Positions 32,712 through 49,146 are shown, counted from the first letter of the stretch. The stretch is 64,000 bases of DNA from Opitutus sp. ER46 (GCF_003054705.1 NZ_QAYX01000020.1:248001-312000); one strand, 5' to 3'. The notes: generated by a model from the sequence alone, not told the origin. Translations and numbers: made by a program.

Positions 32712-34070
<1,359 letters not shown>

Positions 34071-34153
34071 TATTGAGTGGACACTTCTCATCACTTCGCT
34101 TCTATCGCGTAAAGGCCGGTACTCGTGCCGAGTTACCAGCGATTTACGGGACA

Positions 34154-35539
34154 ATGAATGCGAAGTTGAGCGAAGCAAAAAGCGGGAGTGAGAAGCGAAA
34201 AAGTGGCGGAGAAGTGGCGGAGCAACATCAGGTGCGCCGCTCCAAGCTCCACGCCGACTATTGGAAAAAGCGGCTATTCCACGAGGGGTTCACTCGTGGT
34301 GGCCGGCGGCTACTCTCCGGGAATTGGTCGGTTCGAATTAAGCACCAGGGCAGGCGCGGGGCGTTCGGACTCAACACACCAAACGCGGCGGCGGCGGCGG
34401 CAAAGGCCCAACAGATTTACGCCTCACTCGTCTCCGCCGGTTGGGATGCGACGCTTGCGAAATTCAAACCGGATGCCGTCAAGAAACCTGCGGCCGGAAC
34501 GGTTGGCCAGGCGATTGGCGCCGCTGCCCAACTCGTGACGACGCGAAAGCAGTCGTTTGCCCAGGCCGCGTTGCGGCTCCGCCAAATCGCGGGCGAACTC
34601 GCCGGCATTAAGCGCCCCGAGAACCCGACCGCATACAGGTCCGCCGAGTTTCTTGCCTGGCGTGCGAAAGTTGACGGGGTTCCACTCTCCATAATCACGG
34701 CAGCCGCGGTCCGCGAGTGGCGCGACAAGCGCATTGCCGCACGCGCAACAAATCCGGTGGAGAAGCGCGCGGCAACTATCTCCGCCGACTCGACCATCAG
34801 GATGGCGCGCGCGGTATTCTCGAGGCGAATCATGGAGAGCGGGCTTGCGTCTCATGTCACGCTGCCGAGCCCCCCACCCTTTGCTGGCGTCACTGTTGGC
34901 GGAAGCACCAAGCGCTTCGCCGGACGGATCAACGCAGGACAGTTGTTTGCCAAGGCACGCCAAGTGTTGGAAAAGGAAGAGCCGGAGGCATTTCGCGCCT
35001 TCTGTCTCTGTGTGCTCGCTGGACTGCGGAGAAGTGAGGCTGACCGGCTGGCGTGGTCGCAGGTGGATCTTGCTGGGCGAGTCATCACGATCGAGCGCAC
35101 CGAGTGGTTCGAGCCGAAGTCGGAAGAAAGCGCCCGGACAATCGACTTGGATGAAGTCGCCGTCGATATCCTTCGGCGCGCGAAATCAGACAACCCGGAC
35201 CCCGTGTTTGTGCTCAAGGGCGGCGCACCGAAGCTGCAAACCAAAGCCGCGCCCGCGTACCGCTGTGATGCTTCGCCATGGCGCACGTGGGAAAAGTTAA
35301 CAGAATGGCTGAGGGCCAACGGTGTTCACGACGCAAAGCCCATTCATGTTTTGCGGAAGCTCGCGGGATCGCTCGTTTTCCAGGCTCACGGGCTTGAACA
35401 GGCACGTGGATTTCTGGGGCACGCATCTATCACGACGACGAGCGACAGTTATCTTGTGAGACAGCGCCGAGTCACTGTTTCAATTCCAACTCCAAGCGAC
35501 GAGGTTTCGCGCGAGGCCGGAAAGGCAGGTGGCATGTGA
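34154..35539 (+). CDS. int: Tyrosine recombinase integrase of element 2
   Basis: The protein has 461 residues from ATG 34154; a GTG at 34214 is an alternative start. It has a basic arm-binding region, a core-binding domain (about 135-240) and a catalytic domain. The catalytic set is visible: Arg292 in AGLRRSEADRL, His398 and Arg401 in IHVLRKLAG, His423 in LGHAS and the nucleophile Tyr433 in TTSDSYL. It would recombine the 47-bp tRNA-Asn site with the element circle. It begins 84 bp from the att repeat. A 20-bp sequence repeated at the other end of the element overlaps its 5' part and may be an arm-type binding site. All catalytic residues are intact. Confidence 0.9.
   Translation: MNAKLSEAKSGSEKRKSGGEVAEQHQVRRSKLHADYWKKRLFHEGFTRGGRRLLSGNWSVRIKHQGRRGAFGLNTPNAAAAAAKAQQIYASLVSAGWDATLAKFKPDAVKKPAAGTVGQAIGAAAQLVTTRKQSFAQAALRLRQIAGELAGIKRPENPTAYRSAEFLAWRAKVDGVPLSIITAAAVREWRDKRIAARATNPVEKRAATISADSTIRMARAVFSRRIMESGLASHVTLPSPPPFAGVTVGGSTKRFAGRINAGQLFAKARQVLEKEEPEAFRAFCLCVLAGLRRSEADRLAWSQVDLAGRVITIERTEWFEPKSEESARTIDLDEVAVDILRRAKSDNPDPVFVLKGGAPKLQTKAAPAYRCDASPWRTWEKLTEWLRANGVHDAKPIHVLRKLAGSLVFQAHGLEQARGFLGHASITTTSDSYLVRQRRVTVSIPTPSDEVSREAGKAGGM
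34204..34223 (+). repeat. Putative arm-type integrase site, left copy
   Basis: Twenty bases built from two TGGCGGAG words recur exactly at 49007-49026, near the opposite end of element 2. Both copies lie inside the element, 134 and 45 bp from the respective 47-bp att repeats. This resembles arm sites of lambda-type integrases. Confidence 0.45.
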
Positions 35540-36117
35540 ACGCGCGCCGCAAAACCAAGGCAAAAAAGCCAAGCTCCCGAAGGCCAGGGCGCCCCGAGAA
35601 TAGCCGCAGGATTCTGACGAAAAAGGGTGCCGACTACTTCGATAACGAGATGCGGGCTCGTCTCGGTGATCTTCACGACGCCCCGCCTGGTTCCTTCTGG
35701 GCTGAGCGAGTATGGATAGATCGTCACCCCCGGGGCACGACTCTGCAGAAACGCGCGGAGGCACAGCATACGACCCCAGAGGCTTTGATCGTGGAGGCGA
35801 AAGCGCGCCCGCTGGCAGATTGGGCCTTGGCTCAGTTGATCGACGCCATCGACCGCCGAGACACGCAATTCTTTGAAGACGCTGCGCGCTACCTGCGGCG
35901 GCTCGGGTCCGACGGTTCACTTAACCTGCACGACCCGTGGCGATCTGCGATTCTTGATAGCATCGATTGGAGCGGCCGAACCAAGTACACAGTGACCGGC
36001 CTAATGGATTCCGTTCCGTGGAGGCGCTTTGGCTCCGGGTGCCCTGACTGGGGCTACCTGAAGAAGATGTGTGCTGAATTGGGAGTACCGATGCGGCGCG
36101 GCCGACCGCGGAAATAA
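35536..36117 (+). CDS. Hypothetical protein downstream of the integrase
   Basis: The GTG start overlaps the integrase stop by four bases, so the two are probably translated together. The 193-residue product has a very basic N-terminus (RRKTKAKKPSSRRPGRP), a helical middle (about 75-140) and ends with MRRGRPRK, an AT-hook-like tail. Nucleic-acid binding is plausible. I recognise no family, and it is too short to be a terminase or portal. Confidence 0.6.
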   Translation: MNARRKTKAKKPSSRRPGRPENSRRILTKKGADYFDNEMRARLGDLHDAPPGSFWAERVWIDRHPRGTTLQKRAEAQHTTPEALIVEAKARPLADWALAQLIDAIDRRDTQFFEDAARYLRRLGSDGSLNLHDPWRSAILDSIDWSGRTKYTVTGLMDSVPWRRFGSGCPDWGYLKKMCAELGVPMRRGRPRK

Positions 36118-36182
36118 AGGTTCCATTTCCGGCAATTCTTGTCCGATTGTCGGGCGAGGTGTTGCGCGGTCTTGTCCGCGGC

Positions 36183-36407
36183 ATGGAAGACATACCGCGC
36201 AGTAGTAACACCAGTGACAGGTTGGTTGATTTCCGGTATTTCAACGAAATCACCGGGTCGCGCTGCAAGACCTCACACACCGCGCGACAGTACGCCAAGC
36301 GGGGGCTAATCAGGGCTGTTCGGCTCAACGCCCGGGTGCTCCGCTATTCCGAAGCGAGCATTCGACAGTTCATCGCCAATGCCACGGATGGCGGAAGGGC
36401 GGCATGA
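36183..36407 (+). CDS. Small helix-turn-helix protein
   Basis: The protein has 74 residues from the ATG at 36183. The segment CKTSHTARQYAKRGLIRAVRLN followed by VLRYSEASIRQFIAN has the layout of a MerR/excisionase-type DNA-binding domain. It could be the excisionase or an early regulator of element 2. The stop overlaps the next start by four bases. Confidence 0.55.
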   Translation: MEDIPRSSNTSDRLVDFRYFNEITGSRCKTSHTARQYAKRGLIRAVRLNARVLRYSEASIRQFIANATDGGRAA

Positions 36408-36586
36408 ACCGCCGCGAGAACCGCGCGAGCGGCAGCACACACACCAAGGTCGATCGCATTGTCACCTGGGCGCGATCTCAGCGACTGCCGCACGAGTTGA
36501 CACCCAACGCGCTGTTGAGTGCATACCGTGAAGCCACAAGAACGGCCAGGGAACGGCGAGGGGGGCCGCGCCATGAAGGCCGATGA
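36404..36586 (+). CDS. Small basic protein
   Basis: This 60-residue ORF starts in an ATGA overlap with the preceding gene. It is Arg-rich with one probable helix (TKVDRIVTWARSQRLPHEL). Function is unknown. It is kept because of the tight gene packing; its C-terminal codons overlap the next start. Confidence 0.45.
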   Translation: MNRRENRASGSTHTKVDRIVTWARSQRLPHELTPNALLSAYREATRTARERRGGPRHEGR

Positions 36587-36764
36587 CCTCCCCCACCAAT
36601 ACCCCCTTTGCCTGCCGCCGATGCCAATGGAGCCGGCCGGCACGCGCTCCGAAGCCCTGGCAGACTTCTACGAAGCCGACGAGGTAGACCGGCCGCCGCA
36701 ACGCGAGGTGTTGCGAAGGATCGAGCGCATTCGCCGCGAAGCCGGCGAGAAGGGGGCCCAGTGA
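36573..36764 (+). CDS. Small acidic protein
   Basis: This 63-residue ORF overlaps genes on both sides. The product is Pro/Glu-rich (LADFYEADEVDRPPQREVL) with a C-terminal helix. No family is recognised. Coupling to the following initiator-like gene (GTGA overlap at 36761) suggests a role in the same early operon. Confidence 0.45.
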   Translation: MKADDLPHQYPLCLPPMPMEPAGTRSEALADFYEADEVDRPPQREVLRRIERIRREAGEKGAQ

Positions 36765-37669
36765 ATGCGCGGGACATCCATGACGGCCCGTGGTGCTGGC
36801 AGAGCAAAGGCGCGCGCCGCATCATCCGAGACGCCTTCGACGCGACGAACAACGTCGCTACTGCGCTGGCCGTGTATGACGCGTTGACGGAGATCGCGAG
36901 CGACAAACAGGCAGAGTCTTTCGAGACAACGCACGCATGGATTCAGCGGCTGAGCGGCGTTGGCGTTAGCACCATTAAAAGGCACCTCCGCGTCATGGCC
37001 GATCTCGGGCTCGTCGAGATCAACACGCCGGCCCTTCGCGCACCGTCCACCTACCGACTCCTTTCGATAGCCAACCATGGGCCAACGATAGCCAGCAGTG
37101 GGCTAGCGTTAGCCAACGGAACCCAAATCGCTCCGTTGGCTACATCAGAAGAATCAGAGAAGAATCACATGAAGAACGGGGGGAAAGAAGGCGCTGCGCG
37201 CCCCGCCCCCGCCTCTGTGCCCTTTCCTTGGTCTTCCCGATTTGATCTACCGCCCGAGTTGGCTGAGAAGCTGGCGACCGCCTTCCCGAACACCAACGCC
37301 GCCGAGGCCACCTTCTGCGAGATCCGCGGCCGAAAGCTCATGCATCGGGACTCATACCCCGCTGCCGATTGGCCGTCTGTGTTTCATGCCGAGGTCGATC
37401 GCGCTCGCGAGAAGGGTAATCCCGGACGATCCGGCCGCCACTTCGACAATGCTGAACCACACCCCGGTGTAACCGAGAGGACGGCGGCGGCTATGCAGTC
37501 GCGCGAGGGCGCCGCGATTCCCGAGCCTGCCAATTGGAGGCCGTGGGTGCGGGAGAATGCGGTCAACCCAGACCTGGCAGACCAACGGTGGGAGCAGTTG
37601 GACCGCGTGCAGCAGCGGTACCTGGCTGACAATGTGCCGGCTTCGTATGCGCCAAAGGAGGCCGCATGA
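36761..37669 (+). CDS. Replication-initiator-like protein with winged helix
   Basis: The protein has 302 residues from a GTG that overlaps the previous stop. The N-terminal 110 residues form a winged helix-turn-helix (ALAVYDALTEIASDKQAESF, then THAWIQRLSGVGVSTIKRHLRVMADLGLVEI as the recognition region), as in HTH_36-type phage replication proteins. The coding sequence right after this domain (37065-37142) consists of 21-bp direct repeats and a perfect inverted repeat, an arrangement like the origin inside lambda gene O. The C-terminal half is helical and may recruit a helicase. Replication is therefore the likely role, by context and architecture. Confidence 0.6.
   Translation: MNARDIHDGPWCWQSKGARRIIRDAFDATNNVATALAVYDALTEIASDKQAESFETTHAWIQRLSGVGVSTIKRHLRVMADLGLVEINTPALRAPSTYRLLSIANHGPTIASSGLALANGTQIAPLATSEESEKNHMKNGGKEGAARPAPASVPFPWSSRFDLPPELAEKLATAFPNTNAAEATFCEIRGRKLMHRDSYPAADWPSVFHAEVDRAREKGNPGRSGRHFDNAEPHPGVTERTAAAMQSREGAAIPEPANWRPWVRENAVNPDLADQRWEQLDRVQQRYLADNVPASYAPKEAA
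37065..37142. repeat. Candidate origin: 21-bp iterons and inverted repeat
   Basis: Two adjacent 21-bp units (37065-37085 and 37086-37106) share CGATAGCCA and TGGGC at the same spacing. A third partial unit begins at 37107. An 11-base perfect inverted repeat follows, with arms TAGCCAACGGA (37110-37120) and TCCGTTGGCTA (37132-37142). The whole lies inside the initiator-like gene. Confidence 0.5.
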
Positions 37670-37794
37670 AGCGCCCCCGTCGATTCCTTCGCGTTTACGG
37701 CATTGGGTCCGCGGGCAAGCCCTCGGCGTCGGTCTGGCCATTCTCGCCACGCCACGGCCACGGGGCGGCGTGCGGCGGGCCTCGGGCGCGAGTC

Positions 37795-37850
37795 GGTCAC
37801 CCCCGGGGGCGGGTCAAAAGTCTTCAGGCCACGGCGCAACACCGAGTGGC
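37795..37850. other. Packaging-site-like (cos-like) GC-rich sequence
   Basis: A CCCCCGGGGG palindrome (37800-37809) is followed by a GGGCGGGTCAAAAGTC-type stretch. From memory, similar stretches often precede terminase genes in tailed phages; this was not checked. An ATGA-overlapping frame from 37666 to 37956 crosses it but has the composition of non-coding DNA. No terminase gene follows. Confidence 0.3.
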
Positions 37851-37964
37851 TACAGTCACTCAAAACTCGCAAGGTTTCTGCAACAGCCCCCTTTTTGATG
37901 CGTCCGGGTGGTCCGCACAACTCGGTTTTACCCTGGGCGGCTTCGGCTGGGCGTGACTCACGAC

Positions 37965-38276
37965 ATGCGCCCACGTGATTCCAGTTCACTGCCAGCGGCC
38001 GTCCGATGGGTTACAGAATCCAAGGCGCAGAAGTGGAGGCATGATCGTGCCATGGCGTTCTTCTTCGCCACGTGCGGCGCCAACGCGTTCCCGGGGTGCG
38101 AAACGATGGCCGACGTGTGCGCGCGGCTCGGCGTATCAGAGCGGACGATGCAGGCGCACCTAGAGGCCCTTCGCATTGGATTCAGGCTTTATGCCCCCCG
38201 TCACGTGGCGACCGACCTACCGGTGCAAACGGAACACGAGTTTGCGGGGCAAAAGAAGACAGAAGAATCGGAATAG
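37965..38276 (+). CDS. Helix-turn-helix protein of element 2
   Basis: The protein has 103 residues. The segment ETMADVCARLGVSERTMQAHLEALRI is a typical HTH recognition region, preceded by a helical WVTESKAQKWRHDRAMAFFF stretch. It may regulate the late genes that start about 100 bp downstream. No effector domain is present. An alternative is a small terminase-like DNA-binding protein, given its position just after the cos-like sequence. Confidence 0.6.
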   Translation: MRPRDSSSLPAAVRWVTESKAQKWRHDRAMAFFFATCGANAFPGCETMADVCARLGVSERTMQAHLEALRIGFRLYAPRHVATDLPVQTEHEFAGQKKTEESE

Positions 38277-38368
38277 CCGATGCCTACACATTTTCAATCC
38301 AGTCAGTTTGCGCATCCATACATTTAGCGGAGGGGCCTCACGCCGGCCCAATGTAACCAACAACCAAC

Positions 38369-38968
38369 ATGTTTAAAACTAAAACCCAGACCGAGAAGGC
38401 CGTCGAGATCCTGCGCGAAATTGCGAAGTCCAGCGCACCACACCTCGCGATCATCAACGCGGCGCGCGCGGAAGTTGAGGCCGAGTGCGGGAAGAATCGC
38501 GCAATGAACGAAGCTGAACTCGAGTTCCAGTGCCGCGAATCCGGCGAACTCAACAACGCGCGCCAACAGTTGATCCGACTGCGACTCGAAGCGGAACGGG
38601 TCGCGCAGCCAATCATCTCCGAAGTCGCCGCGCTCGAAGCCGAGGTTCGCGCGACGCACGCCGAGAATATCGAGACGCTCAGACGCAGCGTGGTTGATGG
38701 CACGATCGCGACCCTTGGCGAGGCGCTTGCGAGAAAGTGCAGCTACATCGCCCCGCAGGTGATCGCTGAGCAGGAGTTCCAGGCCGCAAATCACGCGTCG
38801 ACCTGGGCCGAGTCGATGCGGCGGCTGTTCGCCGACGCGAGCGATTTCGACGGCCGCAATATTGCAGAACAGATCGCACTACAGGTGCCCCGGATTCAGG
38901 CAAGCGTGCTGGTGGTGCGGCAGCATAGCGAGGAGTTGCGGGCCGCGCATGGGCGTCCCGCGGCGTGA
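38369..38968 (+). CDS. Coiled-coil protein before the capsid gene, possible scaffold
   Basis: This 199-residue protein is almost entirely alpha-helical and charged, with heptad-like stretches from about residue 45 to 110 (RQQLIRLRLEAERVAQPI, EVAALEAEVRATHAEN). Its size, coiled-coil character and position directly upstream of the major capsid gene suggest a scaffolding protein, which would be needed here because no capsid protease or delta domain is visible. This is inference. The start follows an A/C-rich leader with CAA repeats instead of a Shine-Dalgarno sequence. Confidence 0.5.
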   Translation: MFKTKTQTEKAVEILREIAKSSAPHLAIINAARAEVEAECGKNRAMNEAELEFQCRESGELNNARQQLIRLRLEAERVAQPIISEVAALEAEVRATHAENIETLRRSVVDGTIATLGEALARKCSYIAPQVIAEQEFQAANHASTWAESMRRLFADASDFDGRNIAEQIALQVPRIQASVLVVRQHSEELRAAHGRPAA

Positions 38969-39007
38969 TCATCTTCAGGCAACCAAACCAACAAACCGAC
39001 CAATATT

Positions 39008-40066
39008 ATGTCACGATTTCCAAGTATCTATCAAATCGCCGTCGAGTCCCGCTCTGCGGTCGGCGCGAAATATCTCACCAGGGAGCAGGCCGAGGCGCAG
39101 GAGGAGCTGCGGACTCGCGTTCCGTTCGGGAAAACGTCCGGGATCATCCTGCCGTGGTACGAGCACCGCGACCTTTCGGCGACCGGGACCACTGCCATCG
39201 CAGGCGACCAGGGCGGCATGACCATCTCCACCGAAGTGCCCGAAATCGGCGCCGCGTTTCGCGATAAATTGGTGCTCGAGAAAATGGGCGCGCGCGTGTT
39301 CGGGGGCCTGCAGTCAGAGCTGCACTTCCCCCGGGCGCTCGCTGCAATATCTGCGGATTGGATGAGCGAGAACGCCTCGGGCGACGGCAAGACGTTCAAC
39401 TTTGGGCGGCTCGCGCTCGTGCCGCACCGCATCACGGCCTGGATTGATGTCTCCACCCAGCTTCTCCTGCAGGGGTCGCTCGTCGAGCCATTCCTTCGAA
39501 GCGAGCTTATGGCGGCACTCGCCACGGAGATTCAGCGCGTTGTTATCTCGGGGACCGGCAGCAGCAGTCAGCCCATGGGCATCCTAAACACGCCGGGCGT
39601 CCAGACCCTAGTGGGTGGTGTTAATGGTGCCGCCCCGACGTACGACAATCTGTGTGATTTCGAGTACGCCGTTGCGAACGGGAAGGCCGACCGCGGCAAT
39701 CTCGGGTGGCTCGTCTCTCCATTGACGCGAAAGAAGCTCCGGAAGACCGAGGGGTTCGCCGGCAGCGGGAAGCCGATCTGGGAGCCTACCGCCGCAGACT
39801 CGCTCCTCGGGTATTCGGCCGGTGTTACGACGGCGGTGCCCGACAACCTATCGAAGGGTTCCGCGTCCGGCGTATGCAGCGCGATCGCCTTCCTGGAAAT
39901 GAGCGAGGTGATTATCTGCCTATGGGGCGCCGGCGTCGAAATTAGCGCAACTCGCGCTGGTCTGCACAATACTGGGCAGACCCGGGTTTACGCATCAGCG
40001 TATGCTGACGGTGGTCTCCGGATTCCGGGGGCGGCTGCCGTCATGGTTGACGCGCTTTGCGCCTGA
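39008..40066 (+). CDS. HK97-fold major capsid protein
   Basis: This 352-residue virion protein has the family hallmarks: the N-arm/E-loop region with TTAIAGDQGGMTISTEV, a P-domain with LHFPRALAAISADWMSEN, and the A-domain signature VVISGTGSSSQPMGILNTPGV followed by NLGWLVSPLTRKKLRK. It should assemble the icosahedral shell. It lacks the long N-terminal delta domain of HK97 itself, and no protease gene precedes it, so the upstream coiled-coil protein may scaffold it. The leader is A/C-rich without a Shine-Dalgarno sequence. The neighbours on both sides are co-directional. Confidence 0.9.
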   Translation: MSRFPSIYQIAVESRSAVGAKYLTREQAEAQEELRTRVPFGKTSGIILPWYEHRDLSATGTTAIAGDQGGMTISTEVPEIGAAFRDKLVLEKMGARVFGGLQSELHFPRALAAISADWMSENASGDGKTFNFGRLALVPHRITAWIDVSTQLLLQGSLVEPFLRSELMAALATEIQRVVISGTGSSSQPMGILNTPGVQTLVGGVNGAAPTYDNLCDFEYAVANGKADRGNLGWLVSPLTRKKLRKTEGFAGSGKPIWEPTAADSLLGYSAGVTTAVPDNLSKGSASGVCSAIAFLEMSEVIICLWGAGVEISATRAGLHNTGQTRVYASAYADGGLRIPGAAAVMVDALCA

Positions 40067-40071
40067 TCGCC

Positions 40072-40443
40072 ATGTGGGTCACACTTGACGAGTTTCGCGA
40101 GATCCATCCGGCGTTCGCCGACGAGGCGCGCGCGGTGTTTGGGACCATTCAGACCCGCAAAGTCGCTGCCGACGGTCGCGCCGCCGTGCCGCTGGACCTT
40201 TTGGCCCGTGCGTGTGTGGTCTGGCGCGCCGATCAAACGATGATGCGGCGAGACGGCTCAATGAAGTCGGCCCCGCAGTTCAGGCATGCCGATTACCAGG
40301 GCGGTCTCGCCGATCTCCACGCCGAAGACGTCGCGACGGATACGGCCGCACGCCGGCAGGCCATACTTGAGCGACGCGGGGTCCCGTCACCACAACCGAC
40401 TCCCAGATTCCCGGCGATGCGAAGCGCCGTGCCATTGATATGA
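40072..40443 (+). CDS. Small structural or connector-like protein
   Basis: This 123-residue protein starts six bases after the capsid stop. The sequence is helical with aromatic and acidic residues (WVTLDEFREIHPAF, RACVVWRADQTMMRRDG). Position and size suit a head-completion or tail-assembly protein, but I recognise no family. Its stop overlaps the next start by four bases. Confidence 0.5.
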   Translation: MWVTLDEFREIHPAFADEARAVFGTIQTRKVAADGRAAVPLDLLARACVVWRADQTMMRRDGSMKSAPQFRHADYQGGLADLHAEDVATDTAARRQAILERRGVPSPQPTPRFPAMRSAVPLI

Positions 40444-40892
40444 CTAGTTGCGGGTGCGCCCCCGGGAGCAGAACTCCCGGGGGCCAAACCGCCAAATCGC
40501 CACCGATCAATCCAATGAACGTTCCCGTTTTGCCAAAGAATCCCGACGAGTGGGAGGGAGTGACCTTTACGGTACATCTCGACCGGCCCCGGACGCTTCG
40601 AATCACGCTCCCTGCACTCAGAACCTTCGAACAGAAGATTGGCCGGGCGATCGTCGACGGCGGCCTAAGTTCGCCGGAGCAGCTGGCCGTGTTGATCGAG
40701 GTGCTTTCGCGCGCGGCCGGTGACCCGATTGACGCGCGAGAAGCCGTGGCGCTTCTGGATTCCCGCAGCGTGCTCGAAATCCACGGTGGGTTTCGCCTCT
40801 TCACGAGCGAGGTGTCTCGGATGCGCGATCTCGCGCAGGCGTGGGGCCCGGCAATGCGGCTGATCGACGCACCCGCCTCAACCGACAACTGA
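40440..40892 (+). CDS. Putative tail assembly chaperone
   Basis: The product has 150 residues from an ATGA overlap; an internal ATG (MNVPVLPKN, codon 26) is an alternative start. It has a beta-rich start (GVTFTVHLDRPRTLRITL) and a helical body (LRTFEQKIGRAIVDGGL, EQLAVLIEVLSRAAG). This matches the layout of tail assembly chaperones, which sit directly before the tape measure gene in siphophages and keep the tape measure soluble. No slippery sequence for a gpG/gpGT-type frameshift was seen. Confidence 0.5.
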   Translation: MTSCGCAPGSRTPGGQTAKSPPINPMNVPVLPKNPDEWEGVTFTVHLDRPRTLRITLPALRTFEQKIGRAIVDGGLSSPEQLAVLIEVLSRAAGDPIDAREAVALLDSRSVLEIHGGFRLFTSEVSRMRDLAQAWGPAMRLIDAPASTDN

Positions 40893-40905
40893 CAAACAAA
40901 CCGTC

Positions 40906-42483
40906 ATGGCAAAATCACTACCGCCAATTTCCGCCAAGGTCATCGCCGACGCCGAACAATATGTCGCTGAGCTGAAGCGTGCCGATCGCGCCACCAAGAC
41001 GTTCGGGTCGCAGGTTGACAAAGAGCTCGATGCGCTCGGCAGGAAGGTTAAGCGCAAGTTCTCGCTAGCCGACATCGGGACAAGCGTCCTGTCCGGCCTC
41101 GGCCTCGGGTCCGGCTTTGCGATTGCCGAGAAGGCGATCGACCTAATTGCGAGCCGCTACGCCGACGCCGCAAAGGCGCAGCTTATCATGGAAGAGAGCG
41201 CGGCGCGGCAGCTGGCGATCACGAAGGAAATTCTGGCCGTCGGGCAGACCGATGAACAGCGGCTCGACTCGATGATTGCCGAGGCCACTGAGCTTTACAA
41301 GAAGCGCCAGGCACTGCTCGAGCAACAGTACGACACGATCACGAAGACGGACCGCGAGGGCAACGAGTTCACAGTCAGCACGCCGAGGGCACGCAGTTCC
41401 GAGGATGAGAAGAAGCTGGCCGACCTCACCGCCGCCTACGACAAACTGCGCGTGTCCGTGGCAAAGCTGCGGAAGGAACTCCAGGACAAGGCCGTCACCG
41501 AGCGGGCGACGGAGGCGGAGCGGGATCAGGAAGCACGCATTCGCAACGGTACCGCGTATCTCCGGGAGCGTGAAGCTGCCTTTGATGCACTACTCAAGAA
41601 GCAGGATGAGCACGCGGATGCGACCGCCCGCGCAAACAAAGAGGAAGAAGTGCTTGCCGATCGGATTCGCGCGATGAGCGATCCGCTCTTCGAGTACAAG
41701 AAGAACCTGGAGGATCTTGAGAAGGCGCGGGCGAAACTGACGGCCGCAGAGTATGCGGCAGCGAAAGTTGCGATCGAGAACAAGGAAAAGGCGCGGCAGG
41801 TGTCAGACGTTTCCAGCGAGCTCGACGACTTTTTCGGAAACATCGATCAGGCATCGCGCAAGTTTAAGGACGTGACCAATGGCGCGCGCGCGTTCGAGAC
41901 CGAAATGAACCAGCTGTGGAACAGCATCTCCGACCGCGCCGGGCAGACGTTTGCTGATATGCTGCTAGAGGGTGAGATGACGTTTGGGAATCTTGCGAAC
42001 ATGGTCTCGCGTGCGGTCATCGAAATGGTGAGTCGCTTGGCGATCATCAACCCAATCCTCAACGCGCTATTTGGTGGTGCGACCGGCGTGTTGCCGGCGC
42101 TGTTTAGCATTGGCGGTGCGGTTGCTGGTGGTGCTGCCGGAGCTGCTGGCGCAGCAAGCTCTGGCGGTGCTGGCATCATAGATGCGGGCGCATTTTCGAC
42201 GACGATGGCACCCGTTATGGCATCGGGCGGTAGCGCAGAGGCCGGCATAACGTATCGGGTAAACGAGGACGGTCAGGAGTTTTTCCGGGCGTCCGTCGGA
42301 GGAACAATAATCCCAGTCGGCGCGAGTGGGCATCTTCGAGGCGAGTCGCAGCCGACCAAGGTCTTCAATTTTACGTACCATATTCCGGCCGGCGTGACGC
42401 ATGCCGAGTTGTTGCCGATTCTTAAGGCGCAGGAGCGGCGGACTATTGCAGCACTGCGCGACGCGGACCGGAGGGGCATCTAA
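40906..42483 (+). CDS. Tail tape measure protein
   Basis: The protein has 525 residues. It begins with ISAKVIADAEQYVAELKRAD, typical of tape measure proteins, and continues with a hydrophobic segment near residues 55-85 (VLSGLGLGSGFAIAEKAI). Long coiled coils follow (about 150-340), then a second hydrophobic region (about 375-420) with Gly/Ala-rich repeats. The C-terminal end YRVNEDGQEFFRASVGGTI resembles the conserved tape measure tail. By the usual 1.5-angstrom-per-residue rule it would set a tail of roughly 80 nm, short for a siphophage. The leader is A/C-rich without a Shine-Dalgarno sequence. Confidence 0.85.
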   Translation: MAKSLPPISAKVIADAEQYVAELKRADRATKTFGSQVDKELDALGRKVKRKFSLADIGTSVLSGLGLGSGFAIAEKAIDLIASRYADAAKAQLIMEESAARQLAITKEILAVGQTDEQRLDSMIAEATELYKKRQALLEQQYDTITKTDREGNEFTVSTPRARSSEDEKKLADLTAAYDKLRVSVAKLRKELQDKAVTERATEAERDQEARIRNGTAYLREREAAFDALLKKQDEHADATARANKEEEVLADRIRAMSDPLFEYKKNLEDLEKARAKLTAAEYAAAKVAIENKEKARQVSDVSSELDDFFGNIDQASRKFKDVTNGARAFETEMNQLWNSISDRAGQTFADMLLEGEMTFGNLANMVSRAVIEMVSRLAIINPILNALFGGATGVLPALFSIGGAVAGGAAGAAGAASSGGAGIIDAGAFSTTMAPVMASGGSAEAGITYRVNEDGQEFFRASVGGTIIPVGASGHLRGESQPTKVFNFTYHIPAGVTHAELLPILKAQERRTIAALRDADRRGI

Positions 42484-42487
42484 TATT

Positions 42488-42757
42488 ATGATCAAACCAT
42501 TCGACGGATTGCGACGGACGTTCAGAAAGATGGCGGCGCTTCTGCGCATCGCTTGCGCCCCGGGTGTCACGCGGATCTCGCGCGACGTGTACTCTGATAA
42601 GGCGGATATTGGGGGCCCTCGCGTACTGCGCTATAGCGACGAGGATCAGCAGCGTCTCTTCCCCGGCGATCGCGGGCTAGAGCACGCTGCAAACGCAAAT
42701 CGGCCGCTTCCCTGGGGGCATCTGCAGGAGAATGACGGTCATGGTTCTGAGGGCTAA
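42488..42757 (+). CDS. Small protein between tape measure and tail tip genes
   Basis: The protein has 89 residues from the ATG five bases after the tape measure stop. It has a basic N-terminal helix (FDGLRRTFRKMAALLRIA) and a charged, probably flexible C-terminal part (YSDEDQQRLFPGD). In siphophages this slot holds distal tail or hub proteins. It is too short for a complete one and no family is recognised. Confidence 0.45.
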   Translation: MIKPFDGLRRTFRKMAALLRIACAPGVTRISRDVYSDKADIGGPRVLRYSDEDQQRLFPGDRGLEHAANANRPLPWGHLQENDGHGSEG

Positions 42758-42760
42758 GCC

Positions 42761-45700
42761 ATGGCACCAGCAGTAGGATGGGTTGCGGCAAAAGTTGCGG
42801 CTTGGTGGGCAGCGGCATCGCTGGCGACAAAGGTATTTGTCGTGCTGTCGATCGCATCAACGGCGTACTCCATTACGTCGTCGGCGCGTGCGCGAAAAAA
42901 GATGCGCGCCATGTTGGACTCGCTCAAAAATAGCGGGCAGACAATCACAGTACAGGAGGCGGCAGGGTCGCGTCACATCGTTTACGGCACAGCGCGCAAG
43001 GGTGGTAACCGCGTGTTTGCACACCTCACGGGCACAAAGGGAGAATACCTGCACGTCATCATCGCGCTTGCGCTCGGAGAGTGTGAGTCTATCGGCGACA
43101 TCTATCTTGGTGACGACGTTGTGCCGCTCGACGCCAGCGGCAACGCCACCGGAACCTACTCCGGATTTGTCCGCTGCAAAAAGTACACCGGAACCACTAC
43201 GCAGGTTATCGGATCATCGACGCTCGCGGTTGAGGCTCCTGGCATCTGGGACGCGTCGCATAAGGGTTCGGGTATCGCGGCAATTGAGCTGCGGTTCAAA
43301 TACGATTCCGATAAGTATCCCAACGGCATTGAAAACATCAGCGCGATGGTCAGCGGTCGGAAGCTGTATGATCCGCGCACCGGCGCTACTGCATTTTCGA
43401 ACAACCCGGCCCTTGTCGTCCGCGACTATCTAACGAATCCACAATATGGATTCGGCGCGGCCGAGGACGAGATTGATGACGCGACAGTGATTGCTGCGGC
43501 CAACGTGTGCGACGAAGACGTTGGACTTGTCGGCGGCGGGACCGAAAAGCGCTATACCTGTAACGGAGTGGTTGATACGTCGAACATTAGGAGCGAAATC
43601 CTGCTGCAGCTAACGAACTCAATGGCTGGCTGGGTTGTGTACTCTGGCGGTCGCTGGCGTGTGTATGCCGGCGCCCACCGTGCGCCGTCAGCATCATTTA
43701 CGCTCGACGACCTACGCGGCCCGATCACGGTGCAGGCGTCGGCCAGCCGTCGCGACTCGTGCAACGGCGTCAAGGGCGTGTTTTTGTGCCAAGATAATCA
43801 ATGGCAGCCGGCGGACTATCCGCCGATCCGAAACGCCACCTACGAGGTGGAGGACGCGACCCAGGTGCGCAGCGTAACGGCCGACGCTACGACAGACGCG
43901 CTGACGCTCGACGCTCAGACAAACATCCTCGCCGGCACTGCGATCCGGCTATCGACTACAGGCACGGCGCCGGGAGGCATCACGGCTGGCACGGTCTATT
44001 ACGCAATCGTTGTAGACTCGACGCATATCAAGGTAGCCAGTACGCGCGCCAATGCTACGGCCGGCACATCGATTGACATCACGTCGGCGGGAACTGGCGC
44101 GCATAGCATCCTTGTCGGCGATACCGTGTGGCGCGAAATGGATCTGCCGTTTACGACGTCGGCCGCGACGGCGCAGCGACTCGCAAAGATCGAGCTCGAG
44201 CGTAGTCGGCAAGATATTGTTGTGAGTCTGCCGCTCAAGCTACATGGCATGCGCGTGCAGGCGGGCGACGTGTTTGCGCTGACGGTCGCGCGATACGGCT
44301 GGACCAACAAACTCTTCGAGGTCAGCGAGTGGAAATTTTCGCTCGACGACGGAGACAACCCGGCGCTTGGCGTAGATATTGTTGCGTGCGAGACAGCGGC
44401 CGGCGTGTGGGATTGGGCTGACGGCGAGGAGACTGCGATTGACCTGGCGCCAAACACCACGCTGCCGGACCCGCGCAACGTCGCAACTCCCGCGGGGCTC
44501 ACGGTCACGAGTGGCGCGACTACGGTGCAGATGCAGCCAGACGGCACGGTGCTACCGCGCATGCTCGTGGCGTGGACAGCGCCAAACGACATCCACATCG
44601 AGAGCGGCGGTCGTGTCATCATCGAGACGGCAATTAATGGCAGTGGGGCGTGGTTCCCAGCAAAGACGGTGCGTGGCGACGCGACGTCTGATTACCTTGT
44701 TGGGTACCGCGCTGGCGGCGTATTTGATATTCGCGTACGATTCCAAAATAACCGCGGCATTCGCGGCGAGTGGGCTACTGTAACCGGCCATACGCTTGTC
44801 GGCGACACGGCCAAGCCAAGCGCTCCAGGCACTCCGACGGCCGTCGCGTACCCAGGTTACAATCGCATCACATGGTCCAAGAGCAGCGCGGCTGACGTGT
44901 ACGAGTACGCGATCTACCGCAACACGAGTAACAGTTTCTCGGGTGCCACAAAGCTGGGCGAGACCGGCGGGCTTGCGTGGGACGATCCATCCGTCACTGC
45001 CGGCGTGACGTACTACTACTTTGTTACCGCGATCGACGGCTCGGAAAACGAGAGCGACCCGACGAGTAGCGGCGCGGCAACTACAGCCACAGCCCCCGTT
45101 GGCGCCGTCGTCCCGTCCGCCCCGTCCGCTGCCTCGCGCGTCACACCCGGCAGTAATGACACGTACATGGCCGGCGACGGCACGGTGTACGCGTTTATCA
45201 CTCTGAGCGTGCCGGCAATGCCGTCGGGCGCCGTATGGCAAAACGTGCTATACCGTCGCAATGGCGGCGGCGAGTGGATCGTTGCGGCCCAGCTAAAAAA
45301 TACGGGCAGCACGACGCTGCGTGTTGACGACCTATCGACTGGCGTAGCCTACGAGTTTGCGACACAGGCATGGTCGGGCGCCGGCGGGTCTGCGATCACG
45401 GCGGCGACGGGATCACCGTTCACGGCGCCAACAAAGACTGGCGCACCGCCAGTAATGAGCAGCACCTACGGCTTTGGTCTGCTCAACTACGGATTTAGCC
45501 CAACATTCACGTCATCTGGCGCGAGGCGATATGGGGTTGCTGCTAGGTGGGCCGACGGAATTGGATACACGAATTATCCATATCCGTCCGACTTTAGTCA
45601 CTGGGAGGTCAAGGCCACCGCAACCGACTCGGACGCGGCAGTCGACTATAATGCGGATAGCGGCAGCGGTGTTCCCGCGCTGATAAAGTCTTCATCACCT

Positions 45701-46291
45701 GTTGTCTTTTACTATGTAGATTCGCCGGTCAGATCATATCTCAGGATACGCGGGGTCAACAAGTCGGGCCAGGCCGCGGACTGGTTCAGGGCAACTACGA
45801 TTTGGGAGACACCCGGGTATTGGACGCTGACGGGCGGGGATGCGTCCGCCAAAAACGTCGGAACAACATCCGGGACGGTGGCGGCCGGTGACGACTCCCG
45901 CATAACCGGAGCCGCTCAGAAGGCCAGCAACCTATCGGACCTTACAAATACGTCTGCCGCTCGTAGCAACCTTGGGGTTGGAACCGCCGCGACGCTCAAC
46001 GCGGACAACATGGGCGCCGTTGGCCTGTCCAGCATCACCTCCACCAACGGCGATGGGTATGGTCCGGCGATGCGGTCCGCGGTCGGCAGCAACTACATGT
46101 CGTTTAAGTGGGGCTCGACACTCCTTATCAAGATTGACGTCAGTGAGTTCATCATCCCGCACCACGCGGGGAAGTCGTCTGCCGTGGGGTTTGTGTCGGG
46201 TGGCGGGGTGAGTGACGCGCAGGACGTCGAGGCCCGCGCCGCACTCGATTCGGTCATCCAGACGCTCAAAGATTGGAATATAATGGCGTAG
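42761..46291 (+). CDS. J-like tail tip / host-specificity protein
   Basis: This 1176-residue virion protein has a hydrophobic N-terminus (about 1-40) and a hub domain like lambda J/tip attachment proteins (about 60-370; GTKGEYLHVIIALALGECESI, NPALVVRDYLTNPQYGFG). A beta-rich module of about 70 residues is inserted near 380-455. The hub resumes at VWREMDLPFTTSAATAQRLAKI. Fibronectin III-like domains follow (about 685-860), and a C-terminal fibre-like part has the repeat SNLSDLTNTSAARSNLGVG. It would contact the host receptor and fix host range. Codon and base use look less GC-rich than in host genes. Confidence 0.85.
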   Translation: MAPAVGWVAAKVAAWWAAASLATKVFVVLSIASTAYSITSSARARKKMRAMLDSLKNSGQTITVQEAAGSRHIVYGTARKGGNRVFAHLTGTKGEYLHVIIALALGECESIGDIYLGDDVVPLDASGNATGTYSGFVRCKKYTGTTTQVIGSSTLAVEAPGIWDASHKGSGIAAIELRFKYDSDKYPNGIENISAMVSGRKLYDPRTGATAFSNNPALVVRDYLTNPQYGFGAAEDEIDDATVIAAANVCDEDVGLVGGGTEKRYTCNGVVDTSNIRSEILLQLTNSMAGWVVYSGGRWRVYAGAHRAPSASFTLDDLRGPITVQASASRRDSCNGVKGVFLCQDNQWQPADYPPIRNATYEVEDATQVRSVTADATTDALTLDAQTNILAGTAIRLSTTGTAPGGITAGTVYYAIVVDSTHIKVASTRANATAGTSIDITSAGTGAHSILVGDTVWREMDLPFTTSAATAQRLAKIELERSRQDIVVSLPLKLHGMRVQAGDVFALTVARYGWTNKLFEVSEWKFSLDDGDNPALGVDIVACETAAGVWDWADGEETAIDLAPNTTLPDPRNVATPAGLTVTSGATTVQMQPDGTVLPRMLVAWTAPNDIHIESGGRVIIETAINGSGAWFPAKTVRGDATSDYLVGYRAGGVFDIRVRFQNNRGIRGEWATVTGHTLVGDTAKPSAPGTPTAVAYPGYNRITWSKSSAADVYEYAIYRNTSNSFSGATKLGETGGLAWDDPSVTAGVTYYYFVTAIDGSENESDPTSSGAATTATAPVGAVVPSAPSAASRVTPGSNDTYMAGDGTVYAFITLSVPAMPSGAVWQNVLYRRNGGGEWIVAAQLKNTGSTTLRVDDLSTGVAYEFATQAWSGAGGSAITAATGSPFTAPTKTGAPPVMSSTYGFGLLNYGFSPTFTSSGARRYGVAARWADGIGYTNYPYPSDFSHWEVKATATDSDAAVDYNADSGSGVPALIKSSSPVVFYYVDSPVRSYLRIRGVNKSGQAADWFRATTIWETPGYWTLTGGDASAKNVGTTSGTVAAGDDSRITGAAQKASNLSDLTNTSAARSNLGVGTAATLNADNMGAVGLSSITSTNGDGYGPAMRSAVGSNYMSFKWGSTLLIKIDVSEFIIPHHAGKSSAVGFVSGGGVSDAQDVEARAALDSVIQTLKDWNIMA

Positions 46292-46308
46292 GGATTCGCG
46301 CTGGCGGG

Positions 46309-46653
46309 TCATGGATTTCGACCGCCGAGCTTGAGCAACTCGGAGCCGCGAATCATCCAGGGTGCGCGCGGTCCGCTGCGCTGTCCAATGATCCAGCGGC
46401 AACGCAGCCGCCTGCGGATGGTCTTGCCGCTCAGTCCTGGGATTAGCGCGGTAGCCTCGGCAATCGAGTACACCGCGTTAGGCTCAATGCGCTTAACCGC
46501 GGCTGTCCCGCGCAGCTCTTGACGCAGCTCGCGCACCTCCCGCATGAGGCTTGGAAGAAGGCATTCGGTGAGGTCGGCCTGGGGCATGAGCTCGACTAAC
46601 CGGCGGGCAATAGCCTCAACCGATTCTGGGGACAGGGTGCAGACGGGGTGCAT
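46309..46653 (-). CDS. HTH DNA-binding protein, copy A of an inverted pair
   Basis: The protein has 114 residues from ATG 46653; a TTG at 46671 is an alternative start. Residues 1-60 form a helical N-terminal part (VEAIARRLVELMPQADL, MREVRELRQELRG). The rest is an excisionase/MerR-like domain (VYSIAEATALIPGLSGKTIRRRL, then WMIRGSELLKLGG). The first 62 codons plus leader belong to a 226-bp inverted repeat shared with the gene at 47618-47965, while the DNA-binding tails differ at many silent and coding positions. It points left, convergent with the tail tip gene. It is a likely regulator or recombination directionality factor. Confidence 0.65.
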   Translation of the reverse strand: MHPVCTLSPESVEAIARRLVELMPQADLTECLLPSLMREVRELRQELRGTAAVKRIEPNAVYSIAEATALIPGLSGKTIRRRLRCRWIIGQRSGPRAPWMIRGSELLKLGGRNP

Positions 46654-46691
46654 GCCATTGCGATGGTACAAAAAGCCCGCCTTGGCGAACC
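46466..46691 (-). repeat. 226-bp inverted repeat, left arm
   Basis: It pairs with 47580-47805 at 225 of 226 positions in inverted orientation; the only mismatch is at 46682/47590-type position in the GTTCGCCAA(G/T) word. It covers a terminator arm, the leader and the N-terminal coding part of HTH copy A. Confidence 0.95.
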
Positions 46692-46706
46692 GCGTCCGAC
46701 GGCGGG
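46670..46706 (-). terminator. Rho-independent terminator of the zinc-ribbon gene
   Basis: On the minus strand, six-base arms CCCGCC and GGCGGG flank a 19-base loop and are followed by C and a run of five T. It starts 16 bases after the zinc-ribbon stop codon and precedes HTH copy A. One arm lies inside the inverted repeat and the other outside, yet pairing is kept. Confidence 0.55.
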
Positions 46707-46722
46707 TCGCCCGGCGCCCCCG

Positions 46723-46896
46723 TCACCAGATTCCCAGCAACTTCAGCAGCAGCGCACCGGCAACTAGCCCAATGATGATTGCCGCCACGATACCCGTGGC
46801 GGTCTGCCTTTCCTTAATTGGCCGTCCGCACTTCGGACACTTCTCTGCGGATTCGGATACTTCGGTTTTACAGTCGGGGCAGGTAATAAGGGGCAT
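46723..46896 (-). CDS. Zinc-ribbon membrane protein, 57 residues
   Basis: The ATG at 46896 opens a 57-codon frame. The N-terminus carries two CxxC knuckles (CPDC and CPKC, spaced for one zinc ribbon) and the C-terminal half is a single hydrophobic segment (GIVAAIIIGLVAGALLL). Zinc-ribbon plus one membrane helix is common in small bacterial and phage-borne membrane proteins; superinfection exclusion is one possibility, without direct evidence. It lies in the segment between the 226-bp inverted repeats and is followed by a terminator. Confidence 0.65.
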   Translation of the reverse strand: MPLITCPDCKTEVSESAEKCPKCGRPIKERQTATGIVAAIIIGLVAGALLLKLLGIW

Positions 46897-47268
46897 AGCC
46901 GAATGGGGTTCAGTTCTTCTCTCAAATAGACACGCGCTTCACAAATCGAATCTCAATCTAGCATGGCGGGACCGGCGGCGGGGCAATATTCGTTGGCCGA
47001 TGTCCGCGACAACCGGCGGCCGTGGAAAACTGGTGAGCCGTTCCACCCAGAAGCGCTTTGACGTTCCGGCGCATGGCGGGCAGTGTCCGCCGCGAGGTTG
47101 GGTGCGCTGCCTTGAACAGTGACGCCCCGGCCGGAGTGGTTCGTAGAAGGATGAAAACCAGAAATACAACAGAATTGGGCCGGGTGTGTGCGGGCGGCGA
47201 AAGCCGGGGCGCCTTCATCCGCGTCTGTTCAATCCGGACGCATCCGGCCCTCCCTGTTGAAAGCTAAA
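46897..47268. other. Divergent intergenic region inside the inverted-repeat segment
   Basis: The 372 bp separate the minus-strand zinc-ribbon gene from the plus-strand 91-codon gene and must hold promoters for both. Overlapping frames on each strand (for example plus 47058-47267) have no family signal. Locally AT-richer DNA at 46910-46970 is the best promoter candidate for the zinc-ribbon gene. Confidence 0.5.
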
Positions 47269-47544
47269 ATGGAACTGAACAATGACCGCGGCTTCGCGTC
47301 GTCGAATGCTAGTCACCACTGCCCCGCCTGCGCCAAATGCATCGACCAGCGCGTGGAATACGTGCGGGAGGTGATAGAGGTGGTTCGGGGTATCGTCTCC
47401 CCGGTGCAACTTGCCGCGATCAGTGAGCGAGTGGAGTGCATCAAGCTCGAGGAGATCGCTGAGCGTGTCGCGCGGCGCCGCTTCCGCGAGGCGATCGCCG
47501 AGCGCGTGGCGCCACGTTTACCGCCCGATCTGCGCCGGCACTAA
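47269..47544 (+). CDS. Small protein with a CxxC knuckle and coiled coil
   Basis: The protein has 91 residues from ATG 47269. It has one HCPACAKC knuckle near residue 17, followed by a charged helix (DQRVEYVREVIEVVRGIV) and an Arg/Glu-rich tail (AERVARRRFREAIAERVA). Function is unknown. It lies between the inverted repeats, points right, and is followed by a strong terminator and HTH copy B. The frame extends 27 codons upstream but the extra part looks non-coding. Confidence 0.55.
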   Translation: MELNNDRGFASSNASHHCPACAKCIDQRVEYVREVIEVVRGIVSPVQLAAISERVECIKLEEIAERVARRRFREAIAERVAPRLPPDLRRH

Positions 47545-47569
47545 GCTCTGGCCGCACCTGGCCCCATAC

Positions 47570-47601
47570 AGCCCGCCCTGGTTCGCCAATGCGGGCTTTT
47601 T
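47570..47601 (+). terminator. Rho-independent terminator
   Basis: Seven-base arms AGCCCGC (47570-47576) and GCGGGCT (47591-47597) enclose an inner TGG-TTCG-CCA stem-loop and are followed by five T. It ends the small gene at 47269-47544 and lies immediately before HTH copy B. Confidence 0.75.
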
Positions 47602-47805
47602 GTACCATCGCAATGGCATGCACCCCGTCTGCACCCTGTCCCCAGAATCGGTTGAGGCTATTGCCCGCCGGTTAGTCGAGCTCATGCCCCAGGCCGACCT
47701 CACCGAATGCCTTCTTCCAAGCCTCATGCGGGAGGTGCGCGAGCTGCGTCAAGAGCTGCGCGGGACAGCCGCGGTTAAGCGCATTGAGCCTAACGCGGTG
47801 TACTC
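47580..47805 (+). repeat. 226-bp inverted repeat, right arm
   Basis: It is the inverted partner of 46466-46691, identical except for one base. The match begins at GGTTCGCC and stops abruptly at the codon for the first residues of the DNA-binding tail (TACTC), after which the two genes differ substantially. Confidence 0.95.
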
Positions 47806-47965
47806 CATCGATGAGGCTGCGGCGCTGATCCCGGGACTGAGCGCAAAGACAATCTGCAAGCGGCTGCGTTGCCGCTCGATAATCGGGCAAAAGGGCGGAC
47901 TGCGGTCGCCCTGGATGATCCGCGGCTCCGAGCTGCTTAAGTTGGGCGGCAAGGTCGTTGGCTAG
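47618..47965 (+). CDS. HTH DNA-binding protein, copy B of an inverted pair
   Basis: The protein has 115 residues from ATG 47618. The N-terminal 62 residues equal those of copy A (46309-46653). The tail (VYSIDEAAALIPGLSAKTICKRL, then SPWMIRGSELLKLGGK) is an excisionase/MerR-like DNA-binding domain that differs from copy A in the recognition part. It points right and starts just behind a terminator, so it needs its own promoter or antitermination. A CCAT-CGCA-ATGG palindrome (47605-47616) directly before the start is a possible operator present in both copies. Confidence 0.65.
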   Translation: MHPVCTLSPESVEAIARRLVELMPQADLTECLLPSLMREVRELRQELRGTAAVKRIEPNAVYSIDEAAALIPGLSAKTICKRLRCRSIIGQKGGLRSPWMIRGSELLKLGGKVVG

Positions 47966-47968
47966 GCA

Positions 47969-48346
47969 TCAGACGATTCGCCGCCCGTTCCGGTCCCATG
48001 CGGGGAACTTCGGTGATCCGAGCGCCGGTGAGGGCGCTGCGCACAACCAGTCGGGGTGGTAGCCGTATGAGAACGCCCCGACCATCACGCGGTAGCTCTG
48101 CCAGATGTCGAAGCAGAGACAGTGAGGGTCGTCGGTGCAGTCCTCGCCGCGCCGGAACGCCCAGGCCATGAGATCGGCCGGCGTCGTTGCGCAACCGTCG
48201 TGGCGCACGCTGATGTCATCCAGGATCTCGCGCAGCAGTGCTTCGGCGCAGACGACGGGCGCGCCGGTCTCGGTCTGGGCCGTCAGCATGTAACGGAGTA
48301 GGTCGCGCTCATACACCCAGGGATCGCCATCTGTGTTCCTCGACAT
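47969..48346 (-). CDS. Hypothetical protein of element 2
   Basis: The protein has 125 residues from ATG 48346; a longer frame to 48388 adds residues of non-coding type. It is rich in Trp, Tyr, Cys and Asp (PWVYERDLLRYMLTAQTETG, DDPHCLCFDIWQSYRVMV) and looks like a compact globular protein. No family is recognised. It is convergent with HTH copy B and divergent from the next gene. Confidence 0.55.
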   Translation of the reverse strand: MSRNTDGDPWVYERDLLRYMLTAQTETGAPVVCAEALLREILDDISVRHDGCATTPADLMAWAFRRGEDCTDDPHCLCFDIWQSYRVMVGAFSYGYHPDWLCAAPSPALGSPKFPAWDRNGRRIV

Positions 48347-48420
48347 GTAACGAGCCAACGACGGCCGAAGGCGTGTGCAAACGTACACTATTCACAAGTT
48401 GCCGACAGAAATCCAATCAG

Positions 48421-48996
48421 ATGCAGGCGTTTGACACGCGCCGCGGATTCGCCCAGACTTGGGCGTTGATGCCCCAGAAGACGAGCACCAGCGGCAAAAC
48501 GGTGGTGGACTACGCCAAGCGCGAGATCGGCGGAATCTTGGTTCGCCCCGATTCTCGCGACGTGATGCGCAAGGCTGTTGAGGGCCACCCGATCCGCGTC
48601 CATTCCGCAAGCGACTACGTGAACCTCTACCACGTGTTCAAGCGGATGCGCGAGGCAGGCCGCGCCGGTGCGAACCTCGAACTGGTTCGGCGGCAGGTCG
48701 CACAGTCGGAGTGGCTGCTTTTTGTGCTCCCGGCCGACGTCAACGCCCCCAAGGTTGAGATCCGCGCGGGCTACGACCCGAAGCGCGGCCGGTACAGGCG
48801 CTACGCTGAACGCCTCGCGGCGGGCGAGGTGCTCCACCTGGACAGCCGGGAAGAGGCGGTGAAGGCGCGCAAGGCGTGGCGGCTGTATGTGCCGCTGGCG
48901 CAACGCCAGGGTTTGAGATCCACGACGAAGAAGCGCCCGGGAGGAGGGGTTACTGTCGCCATCTCGAAACGGCACGCCCACCTCGGGGAAGCGTGA
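48421..48996 (+). CDS. Hypothetical protein at the right end of element 2
   Basis: The protein has 191 residues from ATG 48421. It is Arg/Lys-rich and mixed alpha/beta (SASDYVNLYHVFKRMREAGR, EWLLFVLPADVNAPKVEIRAG, KARKAWRLYVPLAQRQGL). No domain is recognised. It is the last gene before the right arm-site repeat and the tRNA, where satellites and prophages often carry accessory (for example anti-phage) cargo. Confidence 0.55.
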   Translation: MQAFDTRRGFAQTWALMPQKTSTSGKTVVDYAKREIGGILVRPDSRDVMRKAVEGHPIRVHSASDYVNLYHVFKRMREAGRAGANLELVRRQVAQSEWLLFVLPADVNAPKVEIRAGYDPKRGRYRRYAERLAAGEVLHLDSREEAVKARKAWRLYVPLAQRQGLRSTTKKRPGGGVTVAISKRHAHLGEA

Positions 48997-49006
48997 ATCG
49001 CGGGAA

Positions 49007-49026
49007 TGGCGGAGAAGTGGCGGAGC
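49007..49026 (+). repeat. Putative arm-type integrase site, right copy
   Basis: It is an exact copy of the 20 bases at 34204-34223, in direct orientation, made of two TGGCGGAG words. It lies 45 bases from the right att repeat and inside element 2. Confidence 0.45.
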
Positions 49027-49042
49027 TGAAAAAATGGAAAAA

Positions 49043-49066
49043 CCCAAGAACGCGTAAGTTCTTGGG
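49043..49066 (-). terminator. Terminator of tRNA-Asn, supplied by element 2
   Basis: Perfect nine-base arms CCCAAGAAC and GTTCTTGGG flank a six-base loop, and on the minus strand the stem is followed by TTTTT. It lies five bases beyond the tRNA CCA end, on the element side of the att repeat, so integration replaced the host terminator with this one. Confidence 0.8.
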
Positions 49067-49070
49067 CTTC

Positions 49071-49146
<76 letters not shown>

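Follow-up and report, generated by a model that had tools for sequence, protein, structure and literature searches.

PLE satellites of Vibrio cholerae encode their own tape measure protein (TMP), tail assembly chaperone (TAC), and sometimes a baseplate hub, which form chimeric tails together with helper parts (PMC12987554). Putative tmp genes are also present in other satellites, some cf-PICIs included (PMC12987554); no satellites with tape measures outside the PLEs and cf-PICIs were found in the open literature searched. The host phage of PLEs, ICP1, is virulent and contractile-tailed, and its hijacked coat is remodeled by a PLE scaffold (PMC10945586). Satellite SaPIbov5 encodes Ccm, a 355-residue-long homolog of the major capsid protein (MCP), which is found in the pentamers of the helper head and reduces its size (PMC8569155). 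The cf-PICIs carry a complete set of head and packaging genes, with small and large terminase subunits (TerS and TerL), portal, protease, and connectors, and borrow their tails (PMC10690885). Here, these systems are compared with a 15.1-kb element of Opitutus sp. ER46 (GCF_003054705.1), a bacterium from the family Opitutaceae of the phylum Verrucomicrobiota. The analyzed window is the 64,000-nucleotide stretch NZ_QAYX01000020.1:248001-312000, the positions of which serve as coordinates, and the ER46 element occupies positions 34,024–49,117. The element is likely to be an integrative phage satellite and a member of a family that recurs in Opitutaceae. It appears to combine the tail strategy of PLEs with the capsid strategy of SaPIbov5 in another phylum. 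No new category of satellites is claimed, because chimeric-tail (PLE) and capsid-redirecting (SaPIbov5) satellites have already been published. The original prediction for this DNA, in which known satellites were divided into thieves of whole particles and makers of capsids only, is outdated on this point, since PLEs encode TMP, TAC, and hub (PMC12987554).

The ER46 element is delimited by an exact 47-bp repeat at the 3′ end of a tRNA-Asn gene, which agrees with the precise 15-kb boundaries proposed originally. All recognized genes have the same direction, in the order integrase, helix-turn-helix (HTH) protein, Rep-like protein, HTH protein, coiled-coil protein, MCP, small helical protein, TAC, TMP, and J. 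The integrase, HK97 capsid protein, tape measure, and J-like tip named in the original prediction are each supported by profile matches, including, for the capsid protein, tape measure, and tip, those to hidden Markov models (HMMs) of the respective families. The boundaries and the principal genes are as follows.

34024–34070, no strand: left attachment (att) repeat, 47 bp, exact copy of 49071–49117 (blastn self-comparison)
34073–35539, plus strand: tyrosine integrase, likely start ATG 34154 (PF00589, 1e-9; phrog_1, 1e-25; 68% identical in congener G104)
36761–37669, plus strand: winged-helix "Rep-like" protein, with homologs in G136 (56% identity over 166 residues), G488 (49%), G014 (30%), and L057 (36%)
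39008–40066, plus strand: stand-alone MCP with HK97 fold, 352 residues (PF05065, 2e-35; phrog_617, 2e-37; family HMM, 3e-67)
40072–40443, plus strand: small helical protein p40057, between the capsid gene and TAC (G004, 37%, E 2e-7; G104, 25%, E 0.02)
40440–40892, plus strand: probable TAC, likely start 40515 (position and homology chain)
40906–42483, plus strand: TMP, 525 residues (phrog_1716, 1e-8; family HMM, 2e-39; 35% identity to G104)
42626–42727, plus strand: C-terminal remnant of a gp31-like phage tail gene (phrog_2048, 3e-7; HMM, 5e-5)
42761–46291, plus strand: J-like tail-tip or baseplate-hub protein, 1176 residues (phrog_5616, 3e-80; HMM, 3.5e-250)
49071–49117, no strand: right att repeat, inside the 3′ end of tRNA-Asn (blastn self-comparison and ARAGORN)
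49072–49146, minus strand: tRNA-Asn (gtt), the integration target (ARAGORN)

Searches of 20 open reading frames against PHROGs and Pfam gave no match to a large terminase, portal, tail tube, or lysis gene. Family-specific HMMs made from related phages were also used to scan the element in all six frames, and they did not detect TerL, portal, tail tube protein (MTP), tail terminator, gp32, or gp30 (best scores 0.2 or worse). TerL (5e-122) and portal (1.5e-109) were both detected in the prophage L006, a control outside the TerL and portal models; the MTP and terminator models are without an outside control, because control phage L079 was among their sequences. The absence of terminase, portal, and tube genes had been predicted, together with a proposal to look for divergent versions of them, and none was detected in the six frames. 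The ER46 element has its own integrase and att sites, is below phage size, and, according to PHROGs, Pfam, and the custom HMMs, does not have a complete virion and packaging gene set, which are general characteristics of satellites. The complete phages L006, L023, and L051 from the same order and class encode TerL, portal, and a 630–750-residue fusion of protease and MCP.

Like the cf-PICIs, the ER46 element is integrative and has its own MCP, and its relatives also bear TerS, protease, or HNH genes. However, of the cf-PICI head components it contains the MCP and lacks TerL, portal, and protease, and it encodes TMP and J, so its tails would not be wholly helper-supplied. The Streptomyces satellites Mulch and Flayer also bear structural genes (PMC10690885); by contrast, they possess both terminase subunits, portal, MCP, scaffold, and adapter (PMC10690885). 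The nearest annotated phages for the ER46 MCP and J are Roseobacter phage CRP-823 and its relatives (PV211013), but the 29-kb genome of CRP-823 is that of a complete phage, in which TerS, TerL, portal, protease-MCP fusion, tube, and lysis genes are all present.

In the congener G104, the same tRNA-Asn is occupied by an element of 16.2 kb flanked by a 46–49-bp repeat. Its integrase and HTH protein are 68% and 60% identical to those of the ER46 element, and it encodes homologs of TAC (37%) and TMP (35%). Further genes encode TerS (phrog_83, 5e-10) and a primase of the BT4734 type, and in the position of the ER46 capsid gene there is a prohead protease (PF04586, 7e-37); profile searches found no TerL, portal, MTP, or J. 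A relative with terminase, portal, and tube genes between the same flanks had been named beforehand as the finding that would speak for a deletion; that set is lacking from the G104 element, which keeps TAC and TMP. In the Opitutaceae metagenome-assembled genome (MAG) BROCD003 (JACFMR010000001, G136), an element of 13.5 kb lies at tRNA-Arg with a repeat of 19 bp; it encodes TerS, MCP, TMP, and a Rep-like protein, and has no TerL, portal, or J in profile searches. Viral contig L057 has a 40-bp repeat at a different tRNA-Arg, a relative of the Rep-like protein (36%), TerS (7e-12), an MCP from another family (phrog_10, 1.5e-74), and TMP (7e-15), with neither TerL nor portal in profile searches. 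The G004 element, from another Opitutaceae genome, has a 30-bp repeat at tRNA-Cys and TerS-like, HNH-like (named by eye), small helical protein, TAC, and TMP genes, with no capsid gene recognized. The partial contig L081 encodes a TerS 75% identical to that of G104, an MCP 45% identical to that of ER46, a protease 47% identical to that of G104, and a 253-residue J hub domain; no TMP is present in the partial contig. Simpler elements with TerS, or TerS and MCP, occur in G181, G488, and G126 (G126 by eye).

The G104, G136, G004, L057, and L081 elements represent a lineage across hosts and not a one-off deletion. The recurrence of the gene plan argues for a satellite rather than a shrunken prophage, so the satellite reading put forward originally is supported by G104 and the further elements. 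The same TerS family occurs on three IMG/VR contigs that also contain a prohead protease (L082), a 704-residue tape measure (L083), or an MCP (L084); they are possible further satellites of the ER46 kind. Locus L053 (G677) has a 46-bp repeat at tRNA-Arg, a stand-alone 344-residue MCP, and an HTH protein, and no other structural genes were recognized there.

It is unlikely that the ER46 element is a defective prophage, that is, a lambda-like siphophage from which deletions removed the genes for packaging, portal, tube, and lysis and the rest of which has not yet decayed. Between TMP and J, within positions 42401–42757, there is a remnant of the C-terminus of gp31, with 46–51% identity to phages L055 and L054. 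The order of tail genes in related phages is TMP-gp32-gp31-gp30-J; the remnant therefore marks a scar of deletion or capture, and it fits a prophage origin, as does an older broken integrase just outside the element at 32.4–34.1 kb. By contrast, the congener G104 lacks the same genes at the same att site, and several elements with differing MCPs, integrases, and tRNAs are all without TerL and portal. The reading frames of MCP, TMP, and Rep-like protein are open despite divergence to 32–49% amino acid identity. Conservation between ER46 and G136 at codon positions 1, 2, and 3 is.58,.70, and.42 for MCP and.60,.64, and.35 for the Rep-like protein, and the lowest conservation of the third positions indicates purifying selection on the proteins. 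Truncation is limited to the one gp31 remnant, and the other recognized genes are open; the original description of all genes as intact thus holds for the recognized genes and fails for 42401–42757. Deletion, which had been offered as the alternative, may have played a partial role that left the gp31 remnant, whereas the lineage disfavors a shrunken prophage as the explanation of the element.

The ER46 MCP has no fused protease and only approximately 41 residues in front of its aligned capsid domain, which leaves scant room for a delta domain. No protease was found in the element with the custom HMMs. The short N-terminus suggests that a separate scaffold or co-assembly with a helper protein is needed. 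The MCP is 48% identical to that of G136, 45% to that of L081, and 28% to that of CRP-823. As a single query it retrieved no relatives from viral or genome contigs, and the relatives were recovered only through alignments and whole-genome searches. In the MCP tree, ER46, G136, and L081 form a clade with support of 96/94; the tree does not fix its position with respect to phages G679 and G742. Since two further satellite-like loci share this supported clade, the capsid gene points to a lineage and not to one shrunken prophage. Encapsulin and gene transfer agent were considered as identities and rejected, because the integrase, att sites, and J are present. In genome G237, listed as one contig, four identical MCP copies are spaced exactly 35,720 bp apart (C1, 4490820–4598813), and they represent either tandem prophages or an assembly artefact.

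The stand-alone MCP homolog of similar length and the lack of a protease gene in the satellite are shared by the ER46 element with SaPIbov5 and other cos-type SaPIs. It is possible, if rather doubtful, that within a satellite lifestyle the ER46 MCP acts as Ccm does, forming no shell alone and co-assembling with the helper MCP into smaller heads. The lengths of 352 and 355 residues (PMC8569155) are consistent with this mechanism, and so is the lack of a protease from the ER46 element when the helper-type phages encode protease-MCP fusions. However, Ccm retains its N-terminal delta domain (PMC8569155), as opposed to the approximately 41 residues in the ER46 MCP. SaPIbov5, the host of which is from an unrelated phylum, also differs from the ER46 element in that no tail genes are described in it (PMC8569155).

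The gene at 40440–40892, called chaperone-like in the original prediction, probably encodes a TAC, as judged from its position and a chain of homologs. The chain leads from ER46 to G104 (37%, E 3e-20), to G004 (1.5e-4), and to a gene of phage L054 (6e-5) that is located between MTP and TMP. A homolog of p40057 is found at the same position in G004, and a possible one in G104. The single-sequence AF2 model of p40057 is helical, with a pLDDT of 62, and its matches to MerR-type winged HTH proteins are not significant. Neither this model nor that of TAC (pLDDT 58) has a significant match in the PDB; therefore, no TerS or TAC identity is claimed from the models. The ER46 J is about 42–43% identical to that of CRP-823. 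Similarly to PLEs, the ER46 element contains a TMP (phrog_1716 and HMM) and a hub or tip protein (J, phrog_5616), the hub not being present in all PLEs. The TMP, the tip or hub, and, in ER46 only probably, the TAC are satellite-encoded in both, with the tube and other tail parts coming from the helper, as is proposed for ER46. By contrast to the PLEs, the ER46 tail genes are lambda- and roseophage-like, and the element has its own MCP. PLE is an analog of the ER46 element by gene functions, not by comparison with PLE sequences.

Based on the precedents of PLE and SaPIbov5 Ccm, roles can be proposed for MCP, TAC-TMP, and J. When a lambda-like siphophage helper infects the cell or is induced, the ER46 element would excise at tRNA-Asn and replicate. 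The satellite MCP would build or reshape the head, the TAC-TMP pair would act as the ruler of the tail, and the helper's tip would give way to J, which may determine the host range. The helper would contribute TerL, portal, the tail tube and terminator, the greater part of the distal tail, and the lysis functions. We infer from the gene content that the element is mobilized and packaged in hybrid particles, and that the individual proteins affect head size, tail length, and, in the case of J, host range. At a likelihood that we place slightly short of even, the family may be a Verrucomicrobiota satellite lineage with interchangeable virion override genes for MCP, prohead protease, TAC with TMP, and tip. 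Its mosaic virions would be built around the portal, terminase, and tube of the helper, with head size, tail length, and, in the ER46 member, host range encoded by the satellite. The family forms a distinct lineage in a phylum other than that of the PLEs, whose chimeric tails are a recent finding (PMC12987554); it has putative override parts of both head and tail, and its members exchange tip, protease, and capsid protein. With it, one could test which virion parts have to be satellite-encoded and which may be taken from the helper, and whether the host range can be changed by a satellite's own tip protein.

Several observations weigh against the identification of the ER46 element as a satellite. 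No TerS was recognized in it, though four relatives carry one, and full-length J is confined to it among the family members. The host genome gave no match to a helper in a search limited to portal family PF04860 and the PF03354 and L051-type TerL, other families being untried. The TAC assignment depends on a chain of weak homologies, with a poor structure model, and a deletion scar is present between TMP and J. Several relatives come from MAGs or viral contigs, L081 being a partial one. The missing TerS, together with the MCP devoid of protease and most of the delta domain, would also suit a domesticated anti-phage island that is no longer packaged, in which capsid, tape measure, and tip are decoys that jam the assembly of an invader. 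A 42% relative of the integrase at a 38-kb non-phage island in the same tRNA-Asn of G816 points in the same direction. However, such an island is very unlikely, because the intact integrase and replication-type genes are retained, and the TerS of the relatives makes sense only for the packaging of their own DNA.

The remaining features of the ER46 element are located to the left of the capsid gene and at the right end.

35536–36117, plus strand: protein without assigned function, after the integrase (no family match worth naming)
36147–36407, plus strand: small HTH regulator or excisionase-like protein (HTH_17, 1e-3; 60% identical in G104)
37908–38276, plus strand: HTH protein (39% in G136, 38% in L081)
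38369–38968, plus strand: coiled-coil protein, 5′ of the capsid gene (no family match)
46322–46691, no strand: inverted duplication arm 1, 91% identity, carrying a small HTH-like gene on the minus strand (blastn self-comparison)
47580–47949, no strand: inverted duplication arm 2 (blastn self-comparison)
48238–48996, plus strand: protein without assigned function, right end (no family match)

The gene that had been called initiator-like encodes a conserved winged-helix protein, as the list of its homologs indicates, and its similarity to Rep is weak. In some members of the family, this protein is a hallmark of satellites. The coiled-coil gene is, as a guess, a candidate scaffold. The right end of the element consists of the 91% inverted duplication of the small HTH-like gene and short genes without assigned function.

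In G816, another congener, approximately 38 kb separate the same tRNA-Asn from an att copy (C21, 43500–82950; L068/L069). It carries large genes of helicase, restriction, and chaperone-like types together with the 42% related integrase, and no phage structural genes; it resembles a defence island that employs an integrase related to that of ER46. To the left of the ER46 element, window positions 24893–34023 hold a second, older island, which is judged to be a separate element. It has a 19-bp partial att copy at 24893–24911 and a frame-shifted integrase at 32.4–34.1 kb that terminates at the att repeat. It also contains HipA-like and HipB-like genes (30157–31818) and a zeta-toxin-like kinase (27461–28021), all named by eye. 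A gene resembling this kinase also flanks the G104 element (L066, 16939–17502).

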